From assembly GCA_903889565.1 (NCBI GenBank), contig CAISYC010000073.1, positions 1 through 64,000 on the forward strand: DNA of 64,000 bases, written 5' to 3'. The notes below the pieces were generated by a model. It was not told where the DNA came from and searched no databases. It saw only the letters and a program-made list of their open reading frames with translations. The stretch comes from an uncultured beta proteobacterium. Lineage in GTDB: Bacteria > Pseudomonadota > Gammaproteobacteria > Burkholderiales > SG8-41. This document shows, piece after piece, positions 37,584 to 61,020 of the stretch. A program made the translations under genes and the position numbers. Position 1 is the first letter of the stretch. The number at the start of each line of letters is the position of its first letter.

Positions 37584-40500
37584 ATGATTGTTTTTCAGAC
37601 GCACTCCCGCATCGTCTCGGATTACGCAACTTATATCCGCAGCTTCCTCAAAATCGCTGATCCGGCTATTCGGGCGACGGTCGAAGGCGAGTTGGAGAAA
37701 GGCAAGTTGTGGCCAGAGCCGCTGTTGCAGTTCAATCCGTCATTCAAGATGTTTGGCAGCCTGGAAGATCTTGCTAAGGCGGGGAAGTTACACCCGGATA
37801 TTCGCGATATCTTCAAGGGTTATACGCTCTATCAACATCAGGTTCAGGCGATTGAGTTAGGAACTGCGGGCCGGGATTTCGTAGTTACCTCTGGCACAGG
37901 GTCGGGTAAATCACTCACTTACATCGGCTCGATCTTTCATCACCTACTTTCAAATCCTGGCGCTCGCGGAGTGGTCGCCGTCGCCGTGTATCCGATGAAT
38001 GCGCTAATCAACTCACAGTTCGATGAGTTCACGCGCTACAAGAAAAACTACGAGGATTCTACCGGCCAGACATTTCCTATCTCGTTTGGTCAGTATACGG
38101 GGCAGGAGAAGGAGGAGGCGCGCCAGAAGATGCGTGAGAATCCTCCACAAATTCTCCTGACGAACTACATGATGCTGGAGTTGTTGCTTACCCGGTTGAG
38201 GGAGCGCTCCATTCGCGACGGCATTTACGAGAATCTGCGCTTTCTCGTATTTGATGAACTTCATACCTATCGAGGACGGCAGGGCGCAGACGTTGCGATG
38301 TTGGTGCGTCGCATTCGCGCGCGCTGTGCGAATCCGGTGGTTTGTATTGGTACATCTGCCACCATGGTGTCAGTTGGTTCCCTTTCGGCGCAGCGGTCTG
38401 AAGTTGCCAAGGTGGCGAGTAAACTTTTCGGGAAGCCTTTTGTTCCTGAACAAGTTGTAAACGAAACGCTTGATCGATCTCTTGCGTATACCGGTACGCC
38501 TCCATCGGCCGCTGTGCTTGCCGCAGCTATCGCTGCAGGAGTTGATCCAAGCGAAGATCCGGCGAAACTTAAGGCGCACGCCGTCGCAGTTTGGCTTGAA
38601 AACGAAGTCGCGCTGGAGTCGCGCGATGGCATTCTTGTTCGCCGCAAGCCCCAGCGGATGACTGAGATTATCGCTGGGCTTGCGCGTGCCTCAAATCAGT
38701 CTGATTCGACATGTCGACAATTTCTTGAACAATTATTGCAGTGGATTAGTGCCGCGAACCAGAAGCTGCAGGACGCTGGGGAGCGTTACACGCTTTTGCC
38801 ATATAAATTGCACCAGTTCATTTCTCAGACAGGCTCGGTTTATACAACACTCGATCAAGACGAAAATCGGTTTATCACGCTCGAGCCCGGCGTCTATAAG
38901 CAAGATGAAGAAGATAAAAAACCGATCTTCCCCAATGTCTTTAGCAGGGCGACTGGCCATGCATTCATTTGTGTCTCGCGTGCAAGCGATCGTCTTGAGC
39001 CTCGTGAGTTTCGTGAAAGTTCCGACGACGATGAAGATGTTACAGACGGCTATCTGATTATTGGCGAGGACGTTTGGGATCCGTTGGAGGACAGTGAGCT
39101 TCTGCCGGACGCGTGGTTGCGCAGGACAAAAAGCGGGACTGTCCCGGACAGCAAAAAGAAAGCGTTTTTCCCAATAAAACTCTTTTTTGATGAATTGGGG
39201 AACTGTTCTGAAACCAAGCCTCTCAAGTGGTGGGGCTGGTTCATGCGCGCCCCATTGTTGTTCGACCCGACAGGCGGCGTTTTCTACGATACAAAGACAA
39301 ACGAAGGAACCAAATTAACCAAGCTTGGAAGCGAGGGCAGGAGCACGTCGACGACGATTACTGCATTTTCGATACTCAATCGACTCGACGATTCCGGTTT
39401 CGCGCAAGCAGATCAAAAACTTTTGAGCTTTACCGACAATCGGCAGGATGCCGCGCTGCAGGCCGGGCATTTCAACGATTTCGTTCAGGTAGTTCGACTT
39501 CGGGCCGGTATACACAAGGCGTTGCAGCAGGCTGCAGTGGGCCACCTTACCTTCGCGACTATTGGCGAGGCAGTGTTCAATGCTCTCGGGCTTCCCTTTC
39601 TGGATTATGCGAATCGAAATGAGGAACCAGCTCTGGCGCCAGTCAGGCGTAACTACGAACAGTGTCTTCAGACCTATCTTGTTTATCGCGCGATTGCCGA
39701 TTTGAGGCGCAGCTGGCGCATCGTATTGCCGAATCTGGAACAGTGCGCACTTCTCTCCGTTGAATATACGGATTTAGATGAAATCGCCGCGGCGGACGCG
39801 TTTTGGAGTGGCACGCCGATTCTTGCTGACCTGAAACCGGAAGACCGTAAAGAGTTTATCGGCACGATCCTCGATTTCTTTCGTCTTGAATACGCTATTC
39901 ATAGCGAAAATTACCTCACCCAATCCAAGATCAAGGAAAACGAAAAACAGTTCCGTGAGCTGTTGCGTTCTCCGTGGACGCTAGATAGAAACGAGGAGCT
40001 GCGAGAGCCTTTTTTTATTCGATACGACACTCTCCCGCGCGCTGCAAAAGTTTTCACAAAAAGCATGGGGCCGGTTAGTTCGCTTGGGAAGTACATTAAA
40101 TTATACGTTCGTCAGCACGAGATCGATCTCGACTTGAAGGGGGGGGCTTACCGCACCTTCATTCTTCAGGTCATGAAAAAGCTTGAGCAGGCGGACTACC
40201 TGAAGTCACAGCCGGCCAGGAATGAAAAGAACGAAGAGGTTCCGTTATATCGATTGCGACTAGAAAAGATAATCTGGAAGGCGGGCGATGAGAAATCCGT
40301 AAAGGCGGATGTAATTAAGCGGCGTTCATACAAAGAACAGGCGCCGCGCCCAAATGAGTTTTTCCAAAATCTTTACAAACGCGACTTTGCCAAAATGAAG
40401 CGCCTGCGTGGTGAGGATCACACGGGTCAATTGAATACGGATCAGCGCATTGATCGGGAGAATAAGTTTCGCGAAGGGGAAATTAGCGCTCTGTTTTGTT

Positions 40501-42701
40501 CGCCGACCATGGAGCTGGGCATTGATATACGCAATTTGAGCGTAGTGCACATGCGCAACGCGCCGCCAAACCCGTCAAATTATGCGCAACGATCCGGGCG
40601 GGCCGGTCGTAGCGGGCAAGCGGCGTTGGTTTTTACCTATTGTTCGAGTTATTCGCCACACGACCGCCATTACTTTAATGACCAGGAATCGCTGGTTGCT
40701 GGCGCGGTCATAGCGCCGAGGCTTGATCTCTGTAACCGGGAATTACTGGCCTCCCATCTCAACGCGTTGGTAGTTTCGGAGATCGGCTTGCCAGGGCTTG
40801 ATGACGTAGGGGTGGCGAAACCGTCGATCATGCGCCTCGTAATCGACGATAACGACAAGCTTCCGATTTCACCAAGTGTACGTGCAGGCCTCGAAATCTC
40901 CCCATCCCAATATGACAGTTTGAAGAGCACTTTCAAAAGGGTTATCAGGGATTTTGCGCCAGAGCTCGAGGGCAAGGCCTCGATGTGGTACTCCGATCAA
41001 TGGATTGAACAAAATCTTGGCAAGATTGCAGATCATCTTGATGATGCGCTTGTCCGCTGGCGCAGGCTTTATAGATCGGCACGATCGATTCTCACGCGCG
41101 CGACGCAAAAAATTGAGAGTGGTACGCTGAGTCTTACAAGCGATGAATATCGCAAGCACAAGCGGAATCAGGACCAGGCCACGCGTCAACTGGACCTCCT
41201 CCGGAACGACCTCAAGGGAAGGTCAACGGAGCTTTCGGAGTTTTATCCCTATCGCTATTTCGCTTCTGAGGGATTTCTTCCGGGCTACAACTTTACGCGG
41301 CTACCGCTCCGTGTCTTCCTGCCGACGAGTGACTCTTCCGGCGAGTTTGTTTCTCGTCCCCGGTCAATCGCTCTGCGCGAATTCGGTCCGATGAATATTA
41401 TTTACCACAACGGCCGCAAATACCGTGTCTGCCAGCTCGTGGTGCAAGATGCCGAATCTACGCTAACCGAAGCAAAGATCAGCACGAAGGCTGGCTACTT
41501 TCTCCCGATGGATCAAAAGGATCTCGAAATTTGCCCATTCTCCGGCCTCAATCTCGGAGATCAGGCGAACAAAGAGCATCTCTACGACCTTATGGAGATG
41601 GCGGAGTCACGCGCCGAGGAAATTGACCGCATCTCCTGTGAGGAGGAAGAACGGGTGTCCCGAGGATATGACATCAGTACTTATTTCTCAGTGGATGGCG
41701 GTCATCTTGGGCGGGTGCGAAAGGCGATAGCGCGGACCAGCGAGAATGCCTTGCTAAATCTTCGCTACGTTCCGGCGGCAAGGCTGGTGCATGTCAATTA
41801 CCAGTGGCGCTCACAAAAGACAGAGGGTTTTCCCATGGGGTTGATCTCCGGGGACTGGCGCAGCTCAATGCCGGAACCCGATAGCAATCTCAATGAGGAA
41901 TTTCGACTGGTCAAATTGTGGACGTCTAATCTTGCGGACGCGCTTTACATAGAACCAATCCAACCACTTGGTTTGAAACCTGATGGAGTGGTGACGCTTC
42001 AGCATGCGCTCAAGCGCGCCATCGAAGGTGTTTTTCAGGTGGAGCCAAACGAGATTGGTGTTGTTGCTGTGGGCAATCCGGAGATGCCCAACATTTTACT
42101 TTACGAGGCCGCGGAAGGCAGTCTCGGAATTTTGTCTCAATTTGTTGAGGATGTGCAGGTCTTTCGCAAGGTCATAGAGCAGGCGATCAAGCTTTGTCGG
42201 TATGACGATGAGGAATACAAAGGGCCGGCAACGTATGATGACTTGCTGAGTTATTACAACCAACGCGATCACAAGATCATTGATCGGCATCTGATCAAAG
42301 ACGCGCTGGAAAAATTGCTTGTTTGTGATGTCGAGATACAGGCAAATCCGAATTTCAAGAATTACGAGGATCATTATCAGACGCTGCTGCGAGGGCTTGA
42401 CCCAACGTCCTCCACCGAACGAAAGTTTATCGAATACCTGTATCAGAATGGCTTGCGCCTGCCGGATGCGGCGCAAAAACGGGTGGAGGATTTATACGTC
42501 CAGCCGGATTTTTACTATGAGCCGCGTATCTGGGTTTTTTGCGACGGCACCCCTCATGACGAGGCGAGGGTGATGGAAGACGATCGCGTGAAGCGGCAAG
42601 CGATCATCGCGCGTGGCGACGAGGTGTGGGTCTACTACTACAAGGACAGCCTCGCGGAAAAGGTTGCCGCGCGGCCTGATATTTTCAGGAAAGTGCGATG
42701 A
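37584..42701 (+). CDS. Giant DEAD-box helicase with DUF1998-like region and nuclease-like C-terminus
   Basis: 1705 residues. Motif I is TSGTGSGKS (about 102-110) and motif II is VFDELHTYRG (about 222). After a long insert, LFCSPTMELGID and QRSGRAGR (about 1000) complete the SF2 core. Residues about 1200-1560 carry the pattern of DUF1998/MZB proteins, with LPGYNFTRLPLR and ILLYEAAEGSLGIL. The last 90 residues (DFYYEPRIWVFCDGTPHDE...DDRVKRQAIIARGDEVWVYYY) look like a Vsr/PD-(D/E)XK-type nuclease. It is like DrmA plus DrmB of DISARM, or DruE of Druantia, in one chain. Start ATG 37584 is preferred over GTG 37581. Its stop overlaps the next gene. Confidence 0.85.
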   Translation: MIVFQTHSRIVSDYATYIRSFLKIADPAIRATVEGELEKGKLWPEPLLQFNPSFKMFGSLEDLAKAGKLHPDIRDIFKGYTLYQHQVQAIELGTAGRDFVVTSGTGSGKSLTYIGSIFHHLLSNPGARGVVAVAVYPMNALINSQFDEFTRYKKNYEDSTGQTFPISFGQYTGQEKEEARQKMRENPPQILLTNYMMLELLLTRLRERSIRDGIYENLRFLVFDELHTYRGRQGADVAMLVRRIRARCANPVVCIGTSATMVSVGSLSAQRSEVAKVASKLFGKPFVPEQVVNETLDRSLAYTGTPPSAAVLAAAIAAGVDPSEDPAKLKAHAVAVWLENEVALESRDGILVRRKPQRMTEIIAGLARASNQSDSTCRQFLEQLLQWISAANQKLQDAGERYTLLPYKLHQFISQTGSVYTTLDQDENRFITLEPGVYKQDEEDKKPIFPNVFSRATGHAFICVSRASDRLEPREFRESSDDDEDVTDGYLIIGEDVWDPLEDSELLPDAWLRRTKSGTVPDSKKKAFFPIKLFFDELGNCSETKPLKWWGWFMRAPLLFDPTGGVFYDTKTNEGTKLTKLGSEGRSTSTTITAFSILNRLDDSGFAQADQKLLSFTDNRQDAALQAGHFNDFVQVVRLRAGIHKALQQAAVGHLTFATIGEAVFNALGLPFLDYANRNEEPALAPVRRNYEQCLQTYLVYRAIADLRRSWRIVLPNLEQCALLSVEYTDLDEIAAADAFWSGTPILADLKPEDRKEFIGTILDFFRLEYAIHSENYLTQSKIKENEKQFRELLRSPWTLDRNEELREPFFIRYDTLPRAAKVFTKSMGPVSSLGKYIKLYVRQHEIDLDLKGGAYRTFILQVMKKLEQADYLKSQPARNEKNEEVPLYRLRLEKIIWKAGDEKSVKADVIKRRSYKEQAPRPNEFFQNLYKRDFAKMKRLRGEDHTGQLNTDQRIDRENKFREGEISALFCSPTMELGIDIRNLSVVHMRNAPPNPSNYAQRSGRAGRSGQAALVFTYCSSYSPHDRHYFNDQESLVAGAVIAPRLDLCNRELLASHLNALVVSEIGLPGLDDVGVAKPSIMRLVIDDNDKLPISPSVRAGLEISPSQYDSLKSTFKRVIRDFAPELEGKASMWYSDQWIEQNLGKIADHLDDALVRWRRLYRSARSILTRATQKIESGTLSLTSDEYRKHKRNQDQATRQLDLLRNDLKGRSTELSEFYPYRYFASEGFLPGYNFTRLPLRVFLPTSDSSGEFVSRPRSIALREFGPMNIIYHNGRKYRVCQLVVQDAESTLTEAKISTKAGYFLPMDQKDLEICPFSGLNLGDQANKEHLYDLMEMAESRAEEIDRISCEEEERVSRGYDISTYFSVDGGHLGRVRKAIARTSENALLNLRYVPAARLVHVNYQWRSQKTEGFPMGLISGDWRSSMPEPDSNLNEEFRLVKLWTSNLADALYIEPIQPLGLKPDGVVTLQHALKRAIEGVFQVEPNEIGVVAVGNPEMPNILLYEAAEGSLGILSQFVEDVQVFRKVIEQAIKLCRYDDEEYKGPATYDDLLSYYNQRDHKIIDRHLIKDALEKLLVCDVEIQANPNFKNYEDHYQTLLRGLDPTSSTERKFIEYLYQNGLRLPDAAQKRVEDLYVQPDFYYEPRIWVFCDGTPHDEARVMEDDRVKRQAIIARGDEVWVYYYKDSLAEKVAARPDIFRKVR

Positions 42702-45565
42702 CTGTCCAGTTGCAACCCGGCAAACTTGTCTCGCTACGCGGGCGAGACTGGATCGTGCTTCCATCCGACGATAAGGATTTGCTCGTCATCAAGCCGCTGG
42801 GTGGATCGGACGACGAGATTGCAGGCATCTACCTACCGCTTGCAATAGAGTCTGACCAGCCGACGGACGCCCGCTTTGACAAGCCAACCAGTGCGGACTT
42901 GGGGGACATCAGCACCGCCCGTCTGCTTTACGATTCCGCTCGCCTTGCCTTTCGCAATGGAGCTGGACCGTTTCGTGCGCTTGCCAAGCTATCTTTCCGG
43001 CCGCGTTCCTATCAGATGGTGCCCCTCATCATGGCACTGCGTCTGGATACGGTGCGCCTGCTGATCGCAGATGACGTGGGGGTCGGAAAGACCGTCGAAT
43101 CGCTGCTCATCGTCAAGGAGTTGCTGGAGCGCCGCAAGATTCGGCGCTTTGCAGTAGTTTGCCTGCCGCATCTTTGCGAACAGTGGCAGGAGGAGATCCG
43201 CGCCAAACTTGATCTTGAAGCCGTCATCATTCGTTCCAATACCCAAGCACGTCTCGATCGGCAGATTCAAGGCGACACTAGCGTCTACGACTACTATCCT
43301 TATCAGGTCATCAGCATTGATTTCATCAAGTCCGAAGCGCGGCGCGATGTTTTCATTGAGCAATGCCCGGAGATGGTAATTGTCGATGAAACCCACGCGT
43401 GTGCGCGTCCAACCGGCGCATCCAACAGTCAGCAGCAGCGCTATCACCTCGTTAGCCGTATCGCTGCAAAACCAGGGCAGCACCTTATCATGCTTACCGC
43501 GACGCCCCACAGCGGCAAGCCGGAAGAGTTCCATTCACTGCTCGGCTTGATCAAGCCTGAATTTGAAGCCATCGATCTGCCCAATGCCACACAAAATCAG
43601 CGTCGTGAATTGGCACGGTTCTTCGTGCAGCGTAAGCGGGCCGACGTCGAAAAATGGATGGGGGAGGACACGCCGTTTCCGGAGCGCGAAGCATTTGAAT
43701 GGCCATACGATTTGTCAAAAGGCTATGCGCAGTTTTTCGAAGAAATAATCGATTTCGCCCGCAAACTGATTTCGGCAGCACCGGGGCGAGACCGTCAACA
43801 GCGCGTTCAATACTGGACGGCACTGGCCCTTCTGCGCGGGGTAATGTCCAGCCCCAAAGCCGGTATTGAGATGCTCAACACGCGGTTATCGAATCTCGCG
43901 GGCGCGGCTACCGACGACGGCGAGATCGCGGCTGCAGAGCGGGACGAACCCGCGGAAAACCCCGTTGGCGATACCGAGTTTGGTTTTGAAGGTGATTTTG
44001 CACCGACGCAGGTTTTGGAGCGCAACGACTGGACCGAAAACCAGCGCCGCCAGCTTCGCTATTTTGCGCAACAGTTAGAGCAACTGGTCGGTAGCAAGAA
44101 CGATCTCAAGCTCGCTTCCGCCGAATTGATCTTGGAGGATTGGCTCGCTAGTGGGTTTAACCCGGTTATTTTTTGCCGCTACATTGCCACCGCAAATTAT
44201 ATTGGCGAACAACTCGCGCCCGCACTGAAGAAAAAATATCCAAAAATTGATGTGCAGGTCATTACCAGCGAAATGCCCGATGAGTTGCGCAAGGCGCGCA
44301 TCAGTGAAATGGGCAAAGCGCCAATGCGGGTGCTTATTGCCAGCGATTGTCTCAGCGAAGGCATTAACCTGCAGGAACATTTCACTGGCGTGCTGCACTA
44401 TGACCTGCCTTGGAATCCAAATCGCCTTGAGCAGCGGGAGGGCAGGGTAGATCGCTACGGACAATTGGCCGATAAAGTAAAAGCTTGCCTGCTCTATGGC
44501 GCGGATAACCCAATCGACGGCATTGTGCTGGATGTCTTGCTACGCAAGGTCCGTGAAATTAAGCGTGCGACCGGGATCAACGTTCCGTTTCCAGAAGATT
44601 CGCAGAGCATCATCGACACCATCACCCAAGCCCTGTTATTGAATCCAAACCGTCAGATTGCAAAGAAACGCGACAAGCACCAGATTCAGTTCGACTTTGG
44701 CGAATTCGGCGAAGCCGCTACCGCAAAAGCCAATGTCACCCGCAAGCTGGATGAAGCCGCCGAACGCGAAAAAGCTTCACGTAGTATTTTTGCGCAGAAC
44801 ACGATCAAAGCGCAGGAGATCGAGGATGATCTGCGTGAAGTCGACGAAGCCATCGGCAATCCCAAGGCGGTGGAAGAATTCGTAACTTCCACGCTGAGCA
44901 ATCTGTTTGGTGTCCAGGTGACACAGGATCGCAAGGGTTGGCGCTTTGTGACCGGCAATCTGCCTCCGCAATTACGCGATCTGTTGCCTGCAGGCGACAC
45001 GGTCAAGATCAGCTTCCAGTCGCCTACGCCCGAGGGTTATCACTACGTTGGGCGCAACAATCGCTTCGTGGAGCAGCTTTGCCAGCTCATTATGGCCAAC
45101 ACTCTCTCGCAGGTGGACAGGCGCGCAGCACGTGCGGCGGTCATACGTACGAAGCAGGTAAAAATAAAGACGACCCTGTTGCTATTTCGTTGCCGCAATG
45201 TGATCGAGCAGAGTAAAGGCGGTCATCAGATCGTCGCGGAGGAAATGCTGCTTTGGGGATGGCGCGGTACTCCGCAGGAAAAGGAGTTCCTCGACCATGC
45301 CGAGGCGAAAAAATTGCTCGCTGAAGCAAGGGCATCATCTGACCTCTCGCCGCAGGCGCGCGCGAGCTTCCTCGACAACGAACTCAAACTCTTGATCGCT
45401 CTCGATGACGAATTCAGCGCAGTTGCCGAGCGTCAGTCCAAGAAGCTGGTTGAGGCGCATGAGAGGTTCAGCGGTTTGATGGACCGGCAGCACTTTCAGG
45501 TGGTCTATCCGGTTCTTCCAATGGACCTGCTGGGTCTTTACATATTGCTTCCGGACGCGGTTTGA
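42698..45565 (+). CDS. SNF2-family helicase of the defence-like operon
   Basis: 955 residues. An N-terminal beta-rich part (GKLVSLRGRDWIVLPSDD) precedes the SNF2 core. Motifs are ADDVGVGKT (about 124-132), VDETHACARP (motif II, about 229), MLTATPHSG (motif III), then ASDCLSEGINLQ and QREGRVDRYGQ (motif VI, about 579). It resembles the DrmD helicase of class 1 DISARM in layout, but I cannot claim orthology. It overlaps the upstream helicase stop by ATGA, so the two helicases are made together. Confidence 0.87.
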   Translation: MTVQLQPGKLVSLRGRDWIVLPSDDKDLLVIKPLGGSDDEIAGIYLPLAIESDQPTDARFDKPTSADLGDISTARLLYDSARLAFRNGAGPFRALAKLSFRPRSYQMVPLIMALRLDTVRLLIADDVGVGKTVESLLIVKELLERRKIRRFAVVCLPHLCEQWQEEIRAKLDLEAVIIRSNTQARLDRQIQGDTSVYDYYPYQVISIDFIKSEARRDVFIEQCPEMVIVDETHACARPTGASNSQQQRYHLVSRIAAKPGQHLIMLTATPHSGKPEEFHSLLGLIKPEFEAIDLPNATQNQRRELARFFVQRKRADVEKWMGEDTPFPEREAFEWPYDLSKGYAQFFEEIIDFARKLISAAPGRDRQQRVQYWTALALLRGVMSSPKAGIEMLNTRLSNLAGAATDDGEIAAAERDEPAENPVGDTEFGFEGDFAPTQVLERNDWTENQRRQLRYFAQQLEQLVGSKNDLKLASAELILEDWLASGFNPVIFCRYIATANYIGEQLAPALKKKYPKIDVQVITSEMPDELRKARISEMGKAPMRVLIASDCLSEGINLQEHFTGVLHYDLPWNPNRLEQREGRVDRYGQLADKVKACLLYGADNPIDGIVLDVLLRKVREIKRATGINVPFPEDSQSIIDTITQALLLNPNRQIAKKRDKHQIQFDFGEFGEAATAKANVTRKLDEAAEREKASRSIFAQNTIKAQEIEDDLREVDEAIGNPKAVEEFVTSTLSNLFGVQVTQDRKGWRFVTGNLPPQLRDLLPAGDTVKISFQSPTPEGYHYVGRNNRFVEQLCQLIMANTLSQVDRRAARAAVIRTKQVKIKTTLLLFRCRNVIEQSKGGHQIVAEEMLLWGWRGTPQEKEFLDHAEAKKLLAEARASSDLSPQARASFLDNELKLLIALDDEFSAVAERQSKKLVEAHERFSGLMDRQHFQVVYPVLPMDLLGLYILLPDAV

Positions 45566-45573
45566 GGAGCGAC

Positions 45574-46167
45574 GTGCTAATTCCAGTCGCTAATCTCGAC
45601 GCTCTTCGGCCCTTGCAAGCGCTGCCTGTAGTGGCAATCGATCTCGGCTTTTCCCGGGATCAGCGCTCCTGCGGTTTCGCATTTCGTGAGCCTGAATCGA
45701 CTTCGATCAAATCCACGAATCTGCGCTATCAGGAATGCGTGAAAACCACCGCCGAAACCCTTAGGGCTTTTGCGCAATCTGTTTTAATTATCGAGGCGCC
45801 GCTGTCAGGTGCTTTTGACGCAAAGGGCAATCCTCAGTCGAGGGGCGCGTTTGAGGGGGCGCCGAAACCGCGCTGGTGGAGTTTGCGTGCCGGTGCGGCA
45901 ATGGCATTGGCAGCCCAGTATTTCTTGCGCGATTTCTGCAAGCTTGCCTCGACAAATTCAAAGTATTTCCTTATCGAGGGCTTTGTGTCCGGCGTGGATT
46001 CTGGCAATCACATTGATGTGGCAGAACGCTTGCTCGGTGCGCTAGATAGTGCAAAGGGGGCGAGCTGGCAGCAACCTCAGGGCGCATCCCTCACTTCAAT
46101 TGTGGATTGGATCCAGCCCGGCACGGCTCATCCGAGTCCCATAGTCCTCATACCGATATCGCTATGA
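45574..46167 (+). CDS. DUF429-like protein with RNase H-type fold
   Basis: About 197 residues. VVAIDLGFSRDQRSCGFAF gives an Asp in a first strand (D23) and VLIIEAPLSGAFDAKG gives a Glu (E74). The spacing and sequence follow the DUF429/RNase H-fold predicted nucleases. Further on come PRWWSLRAGAAMALAAQYFLRDF and a conserved-looking EGFVSG. Start GTG 45574 has GAGGAG 4 bases before it; a TTG at 45562 overlaps the previous stop. It sits between the SNF2 and methyltransferase genes and ends in an ATGA overlap with the latter. A nuclease role is inferred. Confidence 0.6.
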   Translation: MLIPVANLDALRPLQALPVVAIDLGFSRDQRSCGFAFREPESTSIKSTNLRYQECVKTTAETLRAFAQSVLIIEAPLSGAFDAKGNPQSRGAFEGAPKPRWWSLRAGAAMALAAQYFLRDFCKLASTNSKYFLIEGFVSGVDSGNHIDVAERLLGALDSAKGASWQQPQGASLTSIVDWIQPGTAHPSPIVLIPISL

Positions 46168-49100: not shown

Positions 49101-49919
49101 CCCGTAAGAGATATGGACAAGCGGGCTGCAAGGCGAGAAAGATGGTGGCAATACGCAGAGAAGGCTGTCGGGCTTTACACACATCTTAAAGGGTTGCAAC
49201 TCTGCTTTGCGGCGGCGATTACTACCAAGTACCTCAACTTCAGCGCCCAATCTACGAATCAGGTTTTTGTTAGTGGCCTATACGTCTTTACTACTAACCG
49301 ATGGGATCTCTACACCCTTGTCCAATCCACGCTGCACGAAGTCTGGGCGCGCAAATACAGCGGCGCATTAGAAACCCGGTTGCGCTATTCGCCATCGGAT
49401 TGCTTTGAGACCTTCCCTTTCCCCGAGGGATTGTGGCAGACCGCCAATCCGAATTTGGCAGAAATCGGCGAGCGTTACCATGATCACCGTCGCGTCCTTA
49501 TGAGCCAACTTTGGCTCGGCTTGACCGAAATCTACAACTTGTTCCACGCCCTCGACCTTACTCCCGACCGGGTCGCGATGGTCAGCGAGAAATCGGCGGA
49601 ACAATCCGAGGCGGGCTACAAAGGTATTATTGAACTGCGCCGTTTGCATCGTGAACTTGACGAAGCGATCCGTGACTCCTACGACTGGAGCGACCTCAAC
49701 CTCGGCCACGACTTCCATGAGATCGAAACGCTGCCTGAAAACGACCGCATTCGGTACACGATAAGTCCGGCCGCACGTAAGGAAGTCCTTAAGCGCTTGT
49801 TGGCCTTAAATCACAAACGAGCCAAGGCCGAGGCGACTGCGAGTCCTGAGGCTGGTAAAAAGCCGCGGGGCCGCAAGGCCGCCAAAACTAGCGAGGCGCA
49901 GAACCTGCTCGACCTATAG
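46164..49919 (+). CDS. Eco57I-type N6-adenine DNA methyltransferase
   Basis: 1251 residues. An all-helical N-terminal region (about 1-430) precedes the methylase. The SAM motif I is VADISCGSGHILLAA (about 492). The catalytic motif IV is CILGNPPYLGG (about 754), the NPPY of N6-adenine enzymes. A target-recognition-like region and a basic Lys/Arg/Ala tail (KKPRGRKAAK) follow. No separate nuclease motif is evident in it. It probably marks host DNA so that the helicase/nuclease genes around it attack unmarked DNA. It overlaps the DUF429-like gene by ATGA; 70 bases separate it from the next gene. Confidence 0.92.
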   Translation: MNFSSIRIEGSILSPDILDHLEDAVGQRPADFSLDSGAKVKDEIVRAWADAQDYWRIFQRKLETLKADSPATTETRNNWIVPLLGLLGYQLEYQAKGAEANAKTYSISHRVINRAHTVLHIAGYREPAGLDRKPERTATRMSAHAMVQEYINLSDELYGLVTNGRILRLLRDSSRLIKLSYLEFDLDRIFTDGLFADFAILYRLLHITRLPTSTEAAAESLIERYHQDSLDSGARIRDGLSQAVEQAIRAFGNGFLAHTDNDPLRAEIAAGKLTSDTYYQYLLRLIYRLLFLMVIEERGLVFPQGANPTQREIYERYYSLQRLRRLSEKRHLADRRKRDLWLSLLATFRLFEAHGPGEKLGLAPLAGDLFSSDAIGVLEKSTLGNDVLLGCLRALSLYQNPDTSQLIRVNYAALNVEEFGSVYEGLLKYRTGFELNTNSPSFELRPGADDTQSHYTPDDLVQPLIKHSLDYLIAEKLKAPNPAQALLELRVADISCGSGHILLAAARRIAIELAIARTGEEQPSPPAFRAAIRDVIRECIYGVDLNPLAVELCKVALWLEAHNPGEPLNFLDHHIKCGNAIVGFARREEVERGVPDEAFATMPGDDKETAAILRKRNKQERVAHEAGQIPIAPALQKQLDDILRGWRDLATLPEHTPDEIDAKKARYLAFTQSQDAWMLTQIAAIPIAQFFLSKTPANLQKFVTDDAFRRYWKGEMSPQSQATAEAWAMAERKHFFNWFIEFPEIIQRGGFDCILGNPPYLGGQALSSTYGHAFCEYAKWEYAPAGLSDLVVYFVRRIYGLLRPGGFTAFITTNSIKDGDIRKDGLEQVIARGGTINFAVRGIKWPGRAHLVVSLVALYRGEWRGKRVLDGKGVPVISAYFEDTEDAGEPMALLENANSLYQGSIFLGDGFLLTYDEADKLIEADSRNREVIFPSVSAQLLNSSPDQRPERLIVNFRDWSEEKASLYQAPYSRIRELVKPVRDMDKRAARRERWWQYAEKAVGLYTHLKGLQLCFAAAITTKYLNFSAQSTNQVFVSGLYVFTTNRWDLYTLVQSTLHEVWARKYSGALETRLRYSPSDCFETFPFPEGLWQTANPNLAEIGERYHDHRRVLMSQLWLGLTEIYNLFHALDLTPDRVAMVSEKSAEQSEAGYKGIIELRRLHRELDEAIRDSYDWSDLNLGHDFHEIETLPENDRIRYTISPAARKEVLKRLLALNHKRAKAEATASPEAGKKPRGRKAAKTSEAQNLLDL

Positions 49920-49989
49920 ACATGGCGCGTATTTACGAAATTAGTCGCCTGCCCTTTTCAAATTCAACTTTCACATCGAAGACCCGCAA

Positions 49990-50673
49990 ATGGCTATCAG
50001 CAGCAAGCGCATTCGCATTCCTGTGCAATTGGTGGATGGCCAGTGGGAGTTGTTATACGGTGGCTCCGTGAAGGTCAAGGACGGCTGTATAGGCGAACTT
50101 GAGGTCGCGGTTAGCGACATCGTGGACAAAGCGTTCCGGGAGGCGTTGACCGCGAAACGCCAAGTCCGGATTCTTGATCAAGGCACCGAATTGCGGGTCG
50201 CATTGAGTGTCAGGGCACCCTTGGACCAGGCATTGGGAAAGTGCTTTGTAACGGGCCCAATGAAATGGGACCGCGAGGCAAAGGTAAGTGCGGAAAGCCG
50301 TTTCGTTTCAATTTTTCTCGACGCACCTAACCCGCAGCAGGTCAAACGCGGGGAAAAAAGTGGTGGCTTATGGCTGGCGCTGGAAGGGATGACGCCCCGC
50401 GGATTGGAGTCCAGTCAAGTGCGATTGCCATCCATACTCGAATTGGAGCCAGCAATCAGCGTCAACCATGCCTTCACCCTTTTATCGGAGCGTTTCGAAC
50501 CTTGGCGTAAAGCGCACACCGCCAGCATCTACGAGCGGGTCTTTTACCAAGAGGCGAACGGGCAGTGGTATCGGTTGGACGATTTGCGCGAGAAAGAACT
50601 GGCAACTGCTGAACGCGCGATTGTGCAGGCGCTTTGGAAAGAAGTGGAAGCTACGCTGGGTACGGCCAAATGA
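49990..50673 (+). CDS. Hypothetical protein of the defence-like operon
   Basis: 227 residues beginning MAISSKRIRIPVQLVDGQWELLYGG. It is beta-rich in the first half and ends in a helical acidic stretch (LREKELATAERAIVQALWKEVEA). No family is recognised and no catalytic motif is visible. ATGA overlap with the following nuclease-like gene suggests the two proteins act together. Confidence 0.7.
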   Translation: MAISSKRIRIPVQLVDGQWELLYGGSVKVKDGCIGELEVAVSDIVDKAFREALTAKRQVRILDQGTELRVALSVRAPLDQALGKCFVTGPMKWDREAKVSAESRFVSIFLDAPNPQQVKRGEKSGGLWLALEGMTPRGLESSQVRLPSILELEPAISVNHAFTLLSERFEPWRKAHTASIYERVFYQEANGQWYRLDDLREKELATAERAIVQALWKEVEATLGTAK

Positions 50674-51638
50674 GCCTCACGATCGATTACGAATCGGCGG
50701 GATTTCCCAAGGGCGCGCCGGTTGCAAATGGTCATGGCACGCTGGCAGTTACTTGGGACGATTTGCTGTGGGCCGCAATTACTGTGGGACGGCCGAATCG
50801 GCACTACGTCTTCAAATACGGCAGGGCATCCCGCTACGAAGCCTTATTCCGCTGGTCGATGATGCGAATGGCGCTTGAGCAAAGCGGGCCCAGAGCGAGG
50901 CGATTGCGCCGCACGGAACTCGCGCGCAGGCTGGATCCAACTGAAAAGGGTGCAGTTAATTATTTCCTGGGGCTGGCGATTGCGAAACTCATGGCAGATA
51001 GATTGCTCGATGCACCCTGGATGCTCCATCTCGACGTATTCGGGTCAAAGTTGAGCGCGGTATTGAAGGGGCGTTCGCGACCCGATCTGGTTGGGGAAAC
51101 GCTTGCAGGGGAAGGGATTGCACTCGAATGCAAAGGTCGATTGAGCGTTCCCTATAAAAAGGCCAAGGACAAAGCCAAGGCGCAGGCACAAAGGATTGTC
51201 AGCATTCGCGGGTACCCTCCAAAGTACCAGATCGGGGCGATTACCTATTTCAAGAAGGACGTGCTTAAGTTTTATTGGCAGGATCCGGAAGTCGACCCCA
51301 ACATCAAGAACGCAATCAAGGTCGAATTTGAATCAGAAGATGTCTGGCGCCATTACTATCAGCCGATACTCGATTTGGTTCAGGCGAATGCTAGCTATTT
51401 GGCGCGGATGCGTGAGGAGGAATGCCTGATGCCGGTGCCACATGCGGACGTTCAGATTGGAATTCGGCCACGGGTGCTGAATCGTTTACTCGACGCGAAA
51501 TGGGCGGATGCACGTAAATCGGTAAGAGGGAGTGATAACTCATCTTCAATTATTGGTTACCGCACCGACGGTATTGCAGTTATTGCGGGTGAAAGTTGGA
51601 AATTGCCGTTTGAGGGAGATCAGGGTAGCGATGGATAG
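50670..51638 (+). CDS. PD-(D/E)XK-like nuclease-fold protein
   Basis: 322 residues. The central segment SRPDLVGETLAGEGIALECKGR has Asp139, then Glu153-x-Lys155, the PD...(D/E)xK pattern, followed by a helix with Lys/Ala/Gln (KAKDKAKAQAQ). This fits a restriction-endonuclease fold. The family is not recognised. It starts inside the stop of the preceding gene and is followed 37 bases later by the DUF6361 gene. A DNA-cutting role is inferred. Confidence 0.65.
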   Translation: MSLTIDYESAGFPKGAPVANGHGTLAVTWDDLLWAAITVGRPNRHYVFKYGRASRYEALFRWSMMRMALEQSGPRARRLRRTELARRLDPTEKGAVNYFLGLAIAKLMADRLLDAPWMLHLDVFGSKLSAVLKGRSRPDLVGETLAGEGIALECKGRLSVPYKKAKDKAKAQAQRIVSIRGYPPKYQIGAITYFKKDVLKFYWQDPEVDPNIKNAIKVEFESEDVWRHYYQPILDLVQANASYLARMREEECLMPVPHADVQIGIRPRVLNRLLDAKWADARKSVRGSDNSSSIIGYRTDGIAVIAGESWKLPFEGDQGSDG

Positions 51639-51675
51639 CGAATCGTTCGCCTTTTCGGAAATCGAGGGCCGGTGA

Positions 51676-52938
51676 TTGGATAGTTCATTAGGGTGGAGCC
51701 AGATCGCGCGCTCGGACGTGGCGAAGGCGACCGAATTGCTGAAGGGCAGTGAACGTGGCGTTCGCGACGAAATTGGATTTCTGACGCTGCATCAAGGCTT
51801 CTCGGACCGCTTTTTTCCAGGCACGTCTGTACTGCAAACCCGATTGCGCTACGCGCTATTCGTCCCCTGGCAAATTCAGGACCTCGCCGATCAACGCGTT
51901 GGATCGGCTCCGGCCAGTGTTCGGTTGCAAAAAGCGGAGCGGGAACTGGTTTTGCGTTTGAAACTAGGAACCAGTGCAAATGAAGATGACGATGGCGGGG
52001 TGATCGGAATCCGCAGCGAGAATTTTCAGCCCGCGCAGCCGCCAGCCTACGTCTACTGGACGGCGTTGAGGCTATGGGGAATCTTGGATCCAGTCGTAGA
52101 GGGCGTTTGGCCAGGCCGTGCCGAAATTCTCGCTCGGATCGATGGCGCCGGTGGTTTGCGGGATGAGCGGGACGACGAGACAACGCACGTGCGCAACGAT
52201 GCTTTTTTCTTCGCACTCCCGGAGCGCCCGCGGCATTGGTATCGGGAAGGCGGGGCTGGCCTTACTCCTCTTAATTTTCAGCTTCCTTTCAATGAACGGA
52301 AATACCTTCGCGACCGTTTAGTGTCGGTAAGGAGGGGCGGGGCGATGCGGTCAGACGCTGATAGTTTGCTGGCGCGCCTGGCTGCCGTGAAATCGCCAAA
52401 ATTCTCATGGAAGGATCTGGATTTTGATTCCGACGCCGTCAAACAAATCGCGGATGCCGAGGATCGCGATGCGCTGGCGGTCGCGCATGCGGCATCGTCG
52501 CTGACGCGAATTGGTCGATCGGTGTACGGTGCGCTGATCGAATATATTGCCCAAAAGTGCGATAAGCGGAAGGCTGAAAACCAGCTACACAAAAGGCTGG
52601 CTGAGGCAGTAAGCAAAGAAAAAGCGATTGCGCTGACGTGCCGACTTGATGAGGTTGCGGCATTGATTGGGCCGCTTGATCCAAAATTTTCTGCGGCACT
52701 GGCTGAGACACTGATTTGGCTTAAGGGCAACACTAAAGACGTCGCGGACCTTTGGCCCGCATATAAAGCTTCCGAAGAAGCGCGTAAGGATAGTCGGGCG
52801 CGTTTGCCGAATACGCCACGTGCAGCGGTGCTACGCGCAGTATGGTTAGCAGAGAATGCGCGTGAGTCCGATGGCCTTAACTATCGATGGCACCGAGTCA
52901 GCCAGCTACTCGATGACTTGCATGGTGGAAAATCGTGA
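51676..52938 (+). CDS. DUF6361-family protein
   Basis: 420 residues. The N-terminus (SLGWSQIARSDVAKATELL) and the block FFPGTSVLQTRLRYALFVPWQ match proteins named DUF6361, always near helicase and phospholipase-D genes in my recollection. The function of the family is unknown. The start codon appears to be TTG at 51676 with no strong ribosome site. It overlaps the next gene by GTGA. Confidence 0.75.
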   Translation: MDSSLGWSQIARSDVAKATELLKGSERGVRDEIGFLTLHQGFSDRFFPGTSVLQTRLRYALFVPWQIQDLADQRVGSAPASVRLQKAERELVLRLKLGTSANEDDDGGVIGIRSENFQPAQPPAYVYWTALRLWGILDPVVEGVWPGRAEILARIDGAGGLRDERDDETTHVRNDAFFFALPERPRHWYREGGAGLTPLNFQLPFNERKYLRDRLVSVRRGGAMRSDADSLLARLAAVKSPKFSWKDLDFDSDAVKQIADAEDRDALAVAHAASSLTRIGRSVYGALIEYIAQKCDKRKAENQLHKRLAEAVSKEKAIALTCRLDEVAALIGPLDPKFSAALAETLIWLKGNTKDVADLWPAYKASEEARKDSRARLPNTPRAAVLRAVWLAENARESDGLNYRWHRVSQLLDDLHGGKS

Positions 52939-54800
52939 GTGGCCAGCCAGATTGGCAAACGCACTCGTTATTGGCGCAATTTCGACCGGAACCCGGTTGG
53001 GTGCTCGATCGCGCATGTTTTGCCACTTACAGTGCGGATATTCGCGTGGTTACCGCTGCTTTGCTGGCAGTTGCGGGTGTTACTAACGATCCAGAGTCCG
53101 GGTCTGCAGTTCAATTGGTGCAAGCATTCCGTGATCTGCGCCGGCGTGTTTCGTTTGTAGTGCAGCGTGGGCGTATTCATTGGCCACGCAACATTCCACA
53201 AGTGAGCGGCTTGCTGGATCGATTTATATTTGAAGCCAATTACGATGAGCGTGGGCACAGCGGACGCTCATGGCACCCTAAGTTTGCAGTGATGCGCTGG
53301 CGGCGCGTGGACGACGACGCGATATCGTGGCGTGTTTGGCTAGGCAGTAGGAATCTGACGCGCGACTTGTCGTTGGATGCTGGGTTGTTGCTGATTGAAG
53401 ATGCTGACCGTGAAAGCGGCAATGCGACTCCGGAATTAAAAAAAGCGGTCGAAACACTCCAAGCGCATTTACCCAAGCACGGCGCGCAGTTTGCGCAGCG
53501 CGAACTGGATGAACTTGCCAAAGTTCAGTGGATTTCCCCGCCCGGCGTAAAAAAAATAAAAATTCACTGGCTGGATGGCGCCTCTAATCACTTCCCTCAA
53601 CCGGACGGGTTGCAGCAGGAGGCTATTGTCATTAGTCCTTTTGTGGACAGGGCGTCGATGCATCGCACGACTGGTTGGATAAAGGCGGGAAAGCCTATTC
53701 TTGTGGCGTCGCCAGTTGAATTGCAGCGCGAATGTCAAAGCCATCCAGAGCTGACCAAGGCATTGGATTTGCGGGTGCGAGCGCCTGCCATAGAAGAAGG
53801 CATTTCTTACGAACCCCCGGCGGACCTCGTGACCCAGGATCAGGGGGAGGGCGAAGGCGAGATTGATCGTCGCGATGAAGCTAGAGCGCTGCACGCCAAA
53901 CTGATGTATTGGCGGCAGGGTAAAGAGAAGCGATTGTGGATCGGTAGCCCGAACCTTACGAGTCGTGGCTGGAGCAGAAACTTGGAAATTGTTGCGGAGC
54001 TGCTCTCGGTGGCGCCTAAGGACCCGTGGGGTCCGGTTCTGCGGGAAATCGCCGAGAAAGCAGAGCGATTTACGCTGCTTGAGGCCGCTGCAGACAGCGA
54101 GAATGAAACGCAGGACTTGCTCGAAAATGTTCGCAAAGATCTTTCCGCTGAATTCGTTTGCCATCAGCAGCGAAAAGGGGATGTCGTTGGCGTGGTTGCG
54201 AAGCAGACATTGCACATTGAAGCGGGAGTATCGCTTTGGGTAGGCCTGCCGTGGGCGGGCAACGCGCCCGTGCAATGGCCGGACGGAGCTGACCGCATAT
54301 CGCTTGGCCCAGTGCCGCTTTCCGCATGTAGCGATCTTCTGTTATTCCTCCTCCGAAAGGATGGGAACGAGGTTGGCTGGCTTATGCATGGGCCGTTCAG
54401 CCCACCTCTTGGCGAACCGAGAGATCAAGCAAGCCTCGCCGAATATCTTGGGCCGCGCGGTTACCTCCAACTCATACGTGCGGAGTTAGAAGCTACTTCA
54501 GCGGGTTCTGCGCCGCCGTGGGATTCCCCTCCTCAGGGCCGAGGCGGGTCGCAGCATGGTTCGTGGAATCGCTATGACTTGCCGACGTTGGAAGGCTTAT
54601 TGCGTTTGTTTTTGAGAGACCCGGAGCACCTTCAAAAAGTGGCAGATACGGTCGCGATGCTTGAAAAGGAAGCGATTAAGTGGGAATCGGATGACGCGGC
54701 CGTCACGCCGGAAGTCCGCAGGGATCTCATCAGTTTTCAGGAGCTATGGCGAAGCGTTGGGAAGCATTTAACAGATCGAGCGGTTTCGAGTGAAACCTAA
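52935..54800 (+). CDS. Phospholipase D-fold protein with two HxK motifs
   Basis: 621 residues. Two half-sites are readable: HPKFAVMRW...VWLGSRNLT (His114) and HAKLMYW...LWIGSPNLT (His320). These HxK...GSxN motifs build a PLD active site, usually for phosphodiesters of nucleic acid in this context, as with DrmC of DISARM. The rest is unassigned. It starts at a GTG inside the DUF6361 stop and ends 11 bases into the helicase gene. Confidence 0.83.
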   Translation: MSGQPDWQTHSLLAQFRPEPGWVLDRACFATYSADIRVVTAALLAVAGVTNDPESGSAVQLVQAFRDLRRRVSFVVQRGRIHWPRNIPQVSGLLDRFIFEANYDERGHSGRSWHPKFAVMRWRRVDDDAISWRVWLGSRNLTRDLSLDAGLLLIEDADRESGNATPELKKAVETLQAHLPKHGAQFAQRELDELAKVQWISPPGVKKIKIHWLDGASNHFPQPDGLQQEAIVISPFVDRASMHRTTGWIKAGKPILVASPVELQRECQSHPELTKALDLRVRAPAIEEGISYEPPADLVTQDQGEGEGEIDRRDEARALHAKLMYWRQGKEKRLWIGSPNLTSRGWSRNLEIVAELLSVAPKDPWGPVLREIAEKAERFTLLEAAADSENETQDLLENVRKDLSAEFVCHQQRKGDVVGVVAKQTLHIEAGVSLWVGLPWAGNAPVQWPDGADRISLGPVPLSACSDLLLFLLRKDGNEVGWLMHGPFSPPLGEPRDQASLAEYLGPRGYLQLIRAELEATSAGSAPPWDSPPQGRGGSQHGSWNRYDLPTLEGLLRLFLRDPEHLQKVADTVAMLEKEAIKWESDDAAVTPEVRRDLISFQELWRSVGKHLTDRAVSSET

Positions 54801-57800
54801 GCCGTTTCAGTTGCGCACCGCGGATGCGGCTCTGCAGGCACTTACTACAGGCAGCCGTCGCTTTCTTCTCGCTGATGAAGTCGGGTTGGGCAAAACAGTA
54901 GTTGCGCGCGAGATCATAGGACGGCTGGCGCACCGCCGGAATAGCCGGCCGCTTCGAGTATTTTATTTTGCATCTGGTCAGGCGGTCGCTGCCCAGAACG
55001 CGCGCCGTCTAATTCCGGCAGACGGTCAGGGCGAGGACGTTTCCTGTACGTTGTTTGATGCCAGCCGCCCGTCGCTGATCCCTATGGTCCCGATGGAAGA
55101 TATAAGTGAAAGCGAAAAACACCGGGTGCAGCTATTTCGATTTACGCCAGAAACGGCCGTTCCTATTGTCCAAGGTCGTGGCCGCAGCGGAGTTGTGCAA
55201 GAAAGGGCCTTGCTTCGTGTGCTTGTTTCTAGAGTGTTGCATTGGCGATTCCCTCGAGGCTCCGGTCTTCGGAAGGCCTTTCAAGGCGGCGCCACAACGG
55301 CCAATTTTTCTAAGGCTGTACGCGTCGCGCGTGGCCGGTACAGCGATGGCAGCCTCTTGCGAGGTTATCAGTTAGTCAGCCACTTTCGTGACGCGGTAAG
55401 GGAAACGTTTGAGGTAGCTGCTTACGAGCCTCTGCATTTGAAATTGGAAGCGGAGGCATCAAACCCACGATTGTTTATCGGGAAATTGCGGTTGGCACTG
55501 ACAAAGGCAACCTTGCGGTGCCTCCCGCCCGATTTGATTGTCCTTGACGAATTTCACCGATATCGCAAACGAGTTTTCTCATTACCGCTGGCGAGCGGGC
55601 AATCTGGTCAGATAACTGATGCGGACGAGAACTTTTGTTCACTATTGCCTAACGACAATAAACCTGCACTGCTTCTCTTGTCCGCTACGCCTTTTCATTT
55701 GACGGATAGCCATGCATCTGAGCATAGGGCTGGTGATGACGCGGCAGACTTTCACCGCCTGGTTGGATTTCTGCATGGAGATGGAGAAGTTGGCCAAAGC
55801 GCATATCGCAAGTGCCAGGGGCTATTCGCCGAATTCGAGCGTGAGCTCGCGGCAAAAAATCTGGATTCCGATAGCCTTCGCGCCGCACGAAAAAAATTGG
55901 AGGAAGAACTGCTTCGTCCTCGCATTGCTCGGATGGAGCGATCTTCCTTCAACTTCAAGCGAGAGCAGGCGCCGGATCTCCATACTTTGACCGAGCTCCC
56001 TTCAGCAGATGATCTTGATTTGTTTATTCGCTTTTCGTCCGGACTGAAGGATAAGGACCGTAGAACCGCGATTCCCTATTGGCGCGCCGTGCCATATCCG
56101 CAACAGTTACTGGGAAGAGGATATTTGGCTTGGCGACGCGCGTCGCGATCCAAGTGGCGCGGTATGCCGGGCATCAATGAGGAAGATCGGGAAAAGCTTC
56201 TTTTTCGGGGTTCAGTGCCAAACGCGAGATTCCGCGATCTCATGAAGGTGTTCCCGCCGGAGCAATTGGCAATGCCGTGGCTTGCGCCATCGAGGCCGTG
56301 GTGGCCGTTGAGTGGTGCATGGCAACAGAAACCGGGAGAACCGCCGCCGATTGAAAAAGGTCTTTTGTTTAGTCGATTTCGGGCGCTTCCGCCTGGATTG
56401 GCCGGTTTATTGAGTTTCATGGTTGAGGACTGGGCGGCGCGGAAACACGGATGGAGAAGTCACAGAAAACTTAGCCGACAATCATTCCTTGCACCGAAGA
56501 GCGTGGTTGTCGTCGCTCTTTTTCATCCTTCTGCTTGGCTCGCTGATCGAGTGAATCCTGCTTGTCTGGAAAATCCGTCGCGAAAAGAACTAATTCAAAA
56601 TGCGATGCTTTCGATAAAGGAGGGGCTTCCAGCGAGCGTAAAGTTTAACCGCAAATCCAAGCGACATCGCCCAGTGTGGAAGCTCATGATGATGTTGGAA
56701 CATGAAAGTCATGAATGCGTTCCGCCCGGTGAACTCTGGCGCGAAGCGATTGGCACGCAAAGCCGAGGCGGTCGCGTTGGACGTGCATTAAAAAGAATGG
56801 AGCATGCAGGTGCATCTGTTGAGCGTTGGATTTCACCCGTCGAACTTGAAGACCTCGCGTGGTTTGGCCTGACAGCTCCCGGGATCGTCATGCTGCGCGC
56901 GCTCAAGAGACATTGGGCTGATGCAACTGCAGAAACAAACATGCCGGCGGTGGTAGATCTCGCATGGAATGGGTTGAGACCGTATCTAGATCGACCATGG
57001 TTTGTCGCTCGGCTTGCTAGGCGGCGAAGCGGTAGTTATACGGATGCATTGCAGCATGCATCGCTGGATGGCAATTTAGAAGCTGTATTGGACGAGCATT
57101 TCTGGCTGCCGGACGCAGACAATCAGTCATGGGTTCGAACTCGCAAGCAACGGGGCAGGCTGGCAGCATTGCGCGAAACCTTGCGAATTCGGTCTGCCCC
57201 AGTTTCCATATTCGTGCCGACGGGACATAAGCCTGAGCGGAGAATCACTCTTTCTGCGCACGCGGCTTTGCCTCTCACGGACACGCCGGCGAAATTGGCC
57301 GCTAGCGCTGGCACCCAGCAACTCAGAGCGGATGACCTTAGGCAGGCATTTAATACCCCGTTTTGGCCCCACGTACTCTGTACGACTTCAGTTGGCCAGG
57401 AAGGGCTGGATTTTCATCTCTGGTGTCGTCGGGTTGTGCATTGGGATCTGTGCTCCGATCCGATCGATATCGAACAGCGAGAAGGTCGAGTGGATCGATT
57501 CAAGAGCCTTTCCGTAAGACGAGCTCTAGCTGTGGAATTGACTAAATCGAATCCCAGCCAAATTTTGTGGAAGGATATCGAATTGGCCGCGGAGAAGCAT
57601 TCAGATGATCCGGGGCTAGCACCCTGGTGGACGTTTCAAGGCGCTCTGATTGAAAGAATTTTCTTGGATCTGCCCTCAAGTGAGGAGCGCTTGCGACGCG
57701 AACGCCTTGAACACTTGCGCGACCTTTATCGGCTTGTGCTTGGGTTGCCGCATCAGGCAGACGTATTACGACGTTTGGCTACCGTCAAAATGGATGTTGA

Positions 57801-57849
57801 ATTAATACGCGCCTCGTGTCTTGATCTCGGCGCGTGGCGCAGATCTTAG
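54790..57849 (+). CDS. SNF2/DEAD-type helicase paired with the PLD protein
   Basis: 1019 residues. Motif I is ADEVGLGKT (28-36), very close to the N-terminus. Motif II is VLDEFHRYR (about 253) and motif III is LLLLSATPFHL (about 300). After a long divergent middle, TTSVGQEGLDF and IEQREGRVDRF (about 895) complete the core. The start is GTG, overlapping the PLD gene by 11 bases. The DUF6361-PLD-helicase trio forms one translationally coupled unit. Confidence 0.87.
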   Translation: MKPKPFQLRTADAALQALTTGSRRFLLADEVGLGKTVVAREIIGRLAHRRNSRPLRVFYFASGQAVAAQNARRLIPADGQGEDVSCTLFDASRPSLIPMVPMEDISESEKHRVQLFRFTPETAVPIVQGRGRSGVVQERALLRVLVSRVLHWRFPRGSGLRKAFQGGATTANFSKAVRVARGRYSDGSLLRGYQLVSHFRDAVRETFEVAAYEPLHLKLEAEASNPRLFIGKLRLALTKATLRCLPPDLIVLDEFHRYRKRVFSLPLASGQSGQITDADENFCSLLPNDNKPALLLLSATPFHLTDSHASEHRAGDDAADFHRLVGFLHGDGEVGQSAYRKCQGLFAEFERELAAKNLDSDSLRAARKKLEEELLRPRIARMERSSFNFKREQAPDLHTLTELPSADDLDLFIRFSSGLKDKDRRTAIPYWRAVPYPQQLLGRGYLAWRRASRSKWRGMPGINEEDREKLLFRGSVPNARFRDLMKVFPPEQLAMPWLAPSRPWWPLSGAWQQKPGEPPPIEKGLLFSRFRALPPGLAGLLSFMVEDWAARKHGWRSHRKLSRQSFLAPKSVVVVALFHPSAWLADRVNPACLENPSRKELIQNAMLSIKEGLPASVKFNRKSKRHRPVWKLMMMLEHESHECVPPGELWREAIGTQSRGGRVGRALKRMEHAGASVERWISPVELEDLAWFGLTAPGIVMLRALKRHWADATAETNMPAVVDLAWNGLRPYLDRPWFVARLARRRSGSYTDALQHASLDGNLEAVLDEHFWLPDADNQSWVRTRKQRGRLAALRETLRIRSAPVSIFVPTGHKPERRITLSAHAALPLTDTPAKLAASAGTQQLRADDLRQAFNTPFWPHVLCTTSVGQEGLDFHLWCRRVVHWDLCSDPIDIEQREGRVDRFKSLSVRRALAVELTKSNPSQILWKDIELAAEKHSDDPGLAPWWTFQGALIERIFLDLPSSEERLRRERLEHLRDLYRLVLGLPHQADVLRRLATVKMDVELIRASCLDLGAWRRS

Positions 57850-61002: not shown

Positions 61003-61020
61003 GGTATTTCTCCAATGTAA

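Follow-up and report, generated by a model that had tools for sequence, protein, structure and literature searches.

The window analysed here, which makes up the initial 64 kb of a contig of 132,138 bp in a 5.04-Mb genome, contains an array of nine consecutive open reading frames on one strand (g1 to g9; Table 1), which is a variant composite of known kinds of defence system in a mobile defence island and not a single new system. It is very probable that g1, g2 and g4 constitute a core like ARMADA Type I and that g7 to g9 are the Zac triad. The array as a whole is probably a composite DNA-restriction array, in which the ARMADA-I-like core is followed by Zac, accessory cargo sits at two positions (g3 separating g2 from g4; g5-g6 separating g4 from Zac) and the whole is carried in a recombinase-borne defence island. 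A previous sequence-only reading had considered the array to be either a DISARM relative or a new class. The kinship holds, as ARMADA has been named as DISARM-related and contains a fused helicase-DUF1998 protein (2025 preprint, PMC12458937), a fusion already noticed in that reading, while the new class is not supported, given that six of the nine genes are found in ARMADA Type I and Zac. Below, we document the identity and order of these genes, the recurrence of that order in other genomes, and the repeated linkage of Zac to YprA-type helicases.

Table 1. Genes of the array and the module lying directly upstream, in window coordinates
Feature	Positions	Strand	Description
Serine recombinase and two RepB/ParB-like genes	33783..37185	+	Probable mobility module, directly upstream of the array
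g1	37584..42701	+	YprA-family helicase with fused DUF1998 (MZB) and Vsr-like C-terminal motif; ARMADA-I-like
g2	42698..45565	+	BrxHII/RapA-like SNF2 helicase
g3	45562..46167	+	201 aa, no family; inserted between g2 and g4
g4	46164..49919	+	PglX/DrmMI-like N6-adenine methylase with MmeI-type target recognition domain
g5	49990..50673	+	227 aa, no family above noise (PADLOC, Pfam, NCBIfam, PHROGs)
g6	50670..51638	+	322 aa, PD-(D/E)XK-like motif RPD-x(13)-ECK
g7	51676..52938	+	ZacA (DUF6361)
g8	52935..54800	+	ZacB, PLD-like, two HxK...GSxN half-motifs
g9	54790..57849	+	ZacC helicase

The junctions from g1 to g9 measure, in order, -4, -4, -4, +70, -4, +37, -4 and -11 nt, such that six of the eight are overlaps (five of 4 nt and one of 11 nt) and the other two leave 70 and 37 nt between genes; the nine-gene + strand cluster with short gaps and mostly overlapping junctions that had been described from the sequence is therefore borne out between 37584 and 57849. 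The array is flanked by 398 nt upstream of g1 and by 192 nt between g9 and the next open reading frame. The g1 gene (protein of 1705 aa) starts at ATG 37584, with a GTG at 37581 that was used as the start in its family scan, while the better starts of g4 (ATG 46164) and g6 (ATG 50670) both produce ATGA overlaps, the first family scans of these two genes having used longer starts at 46107 and 50634. A promoter and terminator scan gave no excess over shuffled sequences, no tRNA was detected in the whole window, and no Rfam match was detected between 30000 and 64000. The gene 192 nt past g9, on the same strand, encodes 260 aa with no clear family (58042-58824, +; best PHROG match E 0.11) and is possibly a tenth member of the array.

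The giant DEAD helicase with a DUF1998-like part that had been claimed for the first gene is confirmed, as Pfam DEAD (3.2e-24), Helicase_C (8.2e-15) and MZB (1.2e-6) all match within one protein; in comparison with PDB profiles, g1 matched YprA (6znp, 2.3e-21). It thus presents the YprA-like helicase fused to OB-CON-DUF1998 by which ARMADA Type I is recognised. The YprA protein of that type has been described as having a BrxA-like helical insert after RecA1, a beta-barrel insert that carries two or more CxxC zinc motifs, and an active Vsr-type nuclease at the C-terminus (PMC12458937). A Vsr-like motif (PDFYY...FCDGTPH) is located at the C-terminus of g1, and the strict pattern PDF...DG..H is found in 10 of 22 homologues; the nuclease-like tail proposed earlier is retained at motif level only. 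With respect to the beta-barrel insert, g1 departs from the published description, having zero CxxC motifs, and because these are absent it is filed as a zinc-less, non-canonical ARMADA-I-like variant. Among the 22 proteins compared, CxxC is likewise absent from L016, L017 and L115, while the other 18 have four to eight, at similar positions throughout and including the DUF1998 cluster. These three relatives (67-70%) form a single branch with g1 in the YprA tree (100/100 support), and such a natural zinc-less YprA helicase offers a test object for the role of the zinc modules. L016 and L017 are Paraburkholderia and Caballeronia plasmids, whose zinc-less helicases, as that of L115, are close to g1. 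Zac was not found in the fetched DNA of L016, L017 or L115 (the last cut inside its second gene), with no Zac within 18 kb in the two plasmids, the closest plasmid relatives of g1.

Profile matches also uphold the SNF2 helicase and the N6-adenine methyltransferase assigned previously. In PADLOC, g2 matches DpdE over its full length (1.2e-184), DrmD (5.4e-86) and BrxHI/BrxHII (3.6e-48), and in NCBIfam DrmD (1.2e-92) and RapA (1.8e-29), each below cut-off. The methylase g4, with an NPPY motif at residue 757, matches DrmMI (PADLOC, 1.5e-214) and, in Pfam, Eco57I (5.3e-23) and MmeI_TRD (2.2e-10). The order YprA helicase with fused DUF1998, BrxHII helicase and PglX-like methylase is the one given for ARMADA Type I in the preprint (PMC12458937); g1, g2 and g4 follow this published order, with the Vsr-like C-terminal motif on g1, but differ from it in that g3 lies between helicase and methylase, g5, g6 and Zac come after, and g1 is without CxxC. 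There are two departures from the published ARMADA description, namely the absence of CxxC from g1 and three close relatives and a differing hydrolase-like gene after g5, the latter seen in three loci.

The same proteins bear on whether the array is a variant of DISARM class 1, with which it has an SNF2 helicase and an adenine methylase family in common, and g2 and g4 score well on the DrmD and DrmMI models; ZacB also matches DrmC weakly (E 0.0062). The array is nonetheless without a separate DrmA and DrmB pair and without a convincing DrmC: the DrmA match of g1 is weak (PADLOC 7.6e-11; 16.7 bits in NCBIfam, where the cut-off is 950), g8 reaches 16.1 bits on DrmC_I against a cut-off of 133, and no DrmB model is found among the best 25 matches per protein, one fused protein taking the place of the pair. 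Membership in DISARM class 1 was rejected on DrmB and DrmC, and this reading is contradicted by the helicase-DUF1998 fusion and the missing separate DrmB, which leaves it very improbable. In Druantia, the likeness lies in g1, which aligns to DruE models (best 1.9e-82), but no other Druantia model is found among the best 25 PADLOC matches for each of the nine proteins.

The last three genes are ZacA, ZacB and ZacC, adjacent and in that order with nearly full-length PADLOC matches (ZacA 1.5e-76 over residues 1-418; ZacB 2e-100; ZacC 2.4e-219 over residues 2-1017). The DUF6361 assignment of g7 is supported by Pfam (1.6e-11), and the PLD protein in g8 by its ZacB match and a PLD-like Pfam match of 24.8 bits, slightly below the 27-bit cut-off, with half-motifs at 114/137 and 320/337. 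What had been called a second SNF2 helicase, g9, is a helicase with GxGKT and QREGRVDR motifs, but its Pfam matches are ResIII and Helicase_C and not SNF2. All three proteins in A-B-C order are as in the PADLOC system; the differences are that an ARMADA core and g5-g6 precede Zac in the window and that its ZacC lies on a long branch. No relative of ZacA was found in viral contigs. Nor did ZacA have a match in the 14 other genomes of the genus that were searched, so that the window copy was probably acquired. Among the literature matches listed under the names Zac or DUF6361, no functional account was found, and a word search of the main text of the ARMADA preprint did not find Zac (PMC12458937); its repeated linkage ties Zac, which is without a functional account in the literature searched, to YprA-methylase systems.

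The order of ARMADA core, cargo and Zac is also found in two unrelated genomes with different cargo, and no single model set spans the nine genes, so the refuting outcomes named with the sequence-only reading did not occur. In the acidobacterium Solibacter (L103+L104), YprA, BrxHII and the methylase are followed by a 282-aa gene, a TPR protein with a PIN-TPR-GreABC domain, a 402-aa gene and ZacA-B-C. In the planctomycete Fuerstiella (L105+L106), the genes are YprA, a GajB/UvrD-like helicase, BrxHII, an HNH protein, the methylase and an LmuB/SMC-like protein, then a UG5-nitrilase reverse transcriptase (4.4e-268), a 526-aa gene, an HNH protein and ZacA-B-C. Other arrangements include a gammaproteobacterial MAG (L027) with an SNF2 helicase, methylase, g5 homologue, JAB-like protein, ZacA-B-C and YprA-type helicase; L053, in which an SNF2 helicase, methylase, three more genes and DrmA-like and DrmB-like proteins precede ZacA-B-C; and Devosia (L107+L108), where ZacA-B-C is followed by AbiEi, AbiEii, YprA, BrxHII and methylase, a layout like that of the Mesorhizobium plasmid L012. 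In L122, an ARMADA locus without Zac, HipA-like and HIRAN genes lie between BrxHII and the methylase. Since differing genes occupy the same positions across loci, two positions can hold variable cargo, and these slots, which hold other defence genes in ARMADA arrays, are places to mine for new systems. The nine-gene set itself was not found elsewhere in the loci examined, where g3, g5 and g6 vary. In a Rhizobiales genome (L111+L112), Zac comes after a DISARM-like operon made up of helicase, methylase, DrmA-like and DrmB-like genes, and a Mesorhizobium locus (L113+L114) has, about 9 kb downstream of Zac, a run of five genes, of which four encode 427, 539, 633 and 339 aa and the last an 1844-aa helicase that matches g1 weakly.

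The linkage between Zac and YprA-type helicases was followed through a ZacA alignment scan of GTDB genome contigs, which identified 312 relatives; the 80 best were retained. In these 80 and six plasmid loci, ZacB is present in 84 of 86 and ZacC in 82 of 86, and the loci with misses either reach or approach a contig end (L039, L081, L082) or are fragmentary (L100); among 397 other genomes of the window's phylum, ZacC was found in four. The g1 search covered 50 of the 80 loci (contigs of at least 39 kb, with L100 left out), a strong match being one with E below 1e-80 and weaker ones, to 1e-12, standing outside the count. Eight of the 50 Zac genomes have a strong g1 match (two of them split over two ORFs), which in six (L037, L043, L050, L062, L068, L085) shares the contig with ZacA at a distance of less than 20 kb and in two is on a different contig. 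Further linked loci are L027, with a 2120-aa DEAD-MZB helicase, L093, with an 1844-aa helicase having a weak g1 match only, and L053, linked via a DISARM-like pair whose DrmB was recognised by a Pfam MZB match and DrmA by eye and position. A YprA-type gene is thus near Zac in 9 of the 50 long-contig loci, or 10 counting a DrmB-like edge match in L092. In L046, a Zac locus, SNF2-like and methylase-like genes are on the opposite strand. Strong g1 matches were found in 13 of 397 other phylum genomes, against the 8 of 50 Zac genomes (Fisher p 0.0009, a rough guide only because the two samples differ in taxonomy). On a ZacC tree of 74 rows, 10 labelled as linked (a quick method, with several long branches including that of the window), linkage requires at least seven gains or losses, compared with a mean of 9.5 after shuffling, which indicates an association repeatedly gained or lost, yet somewhat clustered. 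Not counting L027, the Zac-linked YprA helicases are spread over three distinct regions of the YprA tree.

These figures bear on the main rival explanation, in which the ARMADA-like genes and Zac are independent neighbours in a defence island that share no function and are accompanied by three hitch-hiking genes. Zac is mostly without YprA-type partners, which makes chance clustering a serious rival, and it has no g1 match on plasmid stretches L010, L011 and L013-L015, while the ARMADA core stands without Zac in L016-L018, L020 and L021. Around the 13 phylum homologues of g1, in stretches of at most 20 kb, YprA, BrxHII and methylase occur in order in eight, the others being three cut by contig ends, L125 without a recognised methylase and L127 with a g1 fragment only; no Zac was found in any of the 13, so that the pairing is a minority arrangement and may reflect defence-island clustering. 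It is the tight spacing at the join (70, -4 and 37 nt), the identical order in the window, the acidobacterium and the planctomycete, and the repeated linkage that argue against mere neighbourhood, which we regard as a substantial possibility somewhat short of even. A more far-reaching view appears rather unlikely, namely that the two make up a modular super-operon that recurs and has two cargo slots, where a methylation-guarded YprA machine cooperates with the Zac nuclease and exchangeable effectors are plugged in (some via a g5-type adaptor), the window branch having also lost all zinc knuckles of its YprA helicase.

With regard to the cargo of the composite array, g3 has no match in PADLOC, Pfam, NCBIfam, PHROG or PDB profiles, and its single homologue (L141, 31% identity) has residues D27, E78 and D152 in common with it. 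The DUF429-like identity suggested for g3 was not sustained: PF04250 gave no match at E up to 5, and hhalign a probability of 0.1 against a rough DUF429 set containing some wrong ORFs. A comparison of g3 with the 216-aa HNH gene that takes this slot in Fuerstiella found no homology. The description of g5 as a protein of no recognised kind agrees with our scans; PDB profiles gave only weak flagellin matches, and a NUDIX identity was rejected (Pfam 14.9 bits against a cut-off of 35). For g6, the PD-(D/E)XK-like identity proposed earlier is retained at motif level only; no family stands above noise in PADLOC, Pfam, NCBIfam or PHROGs, and distant tblastn matches are to Streptomyces, Agrobacterium and related plasmids. 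Beyond the window's own genome, g5 was found in 1 of 302 sampled genomes of the class, g3 in 1 of 292 of the class and g6 in 0 of 299 of the order. Among 92 fetched loci, g5 occurs in L027 only, g3 in none, and g6 in L019 only, a Streptomyces plasmid locus fetched for its g6 match; no relatives of g3 or g5 were found in viral contigs.

The two homologues of g5 (L027:8298-9044 and L140:1777-2496(-); 38-39% identity) are each followed by a different gene, JAB-like in L027 (Pfam E 0.02, under cut-off) and a metallophosphatase in L140 (Pfam 2e-11), where the window has g6. This pattern, in three loci only, suggests that g5 may be an adaptor with swappable effectors. It would also suit a separate two-gene defence unit of adaptor and swappable effector, embedded in larger systems without serving them. 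The differing hydrolase-like gene after each g5-family gene and the 4-nt overlap with the next gene in both the window and L140 favour such a unit, as opposed to the small number of loci and the position of g5 directly after the methylase gene in two of the three, which also fits a methylase-tied role; we consider a separate unit conceivable, though the odds lean against it. The 7-kb contig of L140 has no ARMADA, its neighbours being a T5orf172-helicase, a short DUF3800 gene and an integrase-like gene recognised by eye. To judge by its title, a 2024 bioRxiv work by Payne et al. (10.1101/2024.01.29.577857) reportedly concerns new defences embedded within immune systems, a pattern as in this array.

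For the composite restriction array preferred here, we put forward a mechanism that is tentative as a whole and each biochemical step of which we infer. DrmAB has been shown to sense both the structure of DNA and its methylation (PMC9142583), DruE has been described as a YprA-like helicase-nuclease (PMC13192584), and ARMADA Type II requires each of its four genes and gives protection without abortive infection (PMC12458937). By analogy with these systems, the array may perform methylation-guarded DNA restriction, with Zac as a second helicase-nuclease arm. In this scheme, g4 would set a self mark on the host genome by methylating adenine, g1 and g2 would load on phage DNA that is unmarked or bears single-stranded DNA and translocate along it, and the predicted C-terminal nuclease of g1 would cut it. 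The ZacC helicase and the ZacB PLD domain would form the second DNA-destroying arm, and g5 would be the adaptor pairing with an exchangeable effector, here g6.

The surroundings of the array look like a mobile defence island, with the upstream mobility module matching Pfam Resolvase (8.6e-24), Recombinase (4.3e-18) and RepB (5.6e-16 and 7.9e-47). Downstream of the array lies a bacterial ubiquitin-like operon (58936-61053, -) of ThiF/E1, a 209-aa gene and multiubiquitin, and beyond it (61342-63895, +) a CapH/CapP-like pair of HTH and IrrE peptidase genes followed by a dGTPase-like HD protein (PADLOC dGTPase 4.8e-72). Elsewhere in the window, an SNF2 helicase gene is located beside a HipA kinase gene (22300-26265, -), a tandem pair of 124-nt direct repeats with 77% identity is present at 31695-31952, and the stretch 185-6603 (+) codes for two large TPR proteins that contain glycosyltransferase family 41 domains.
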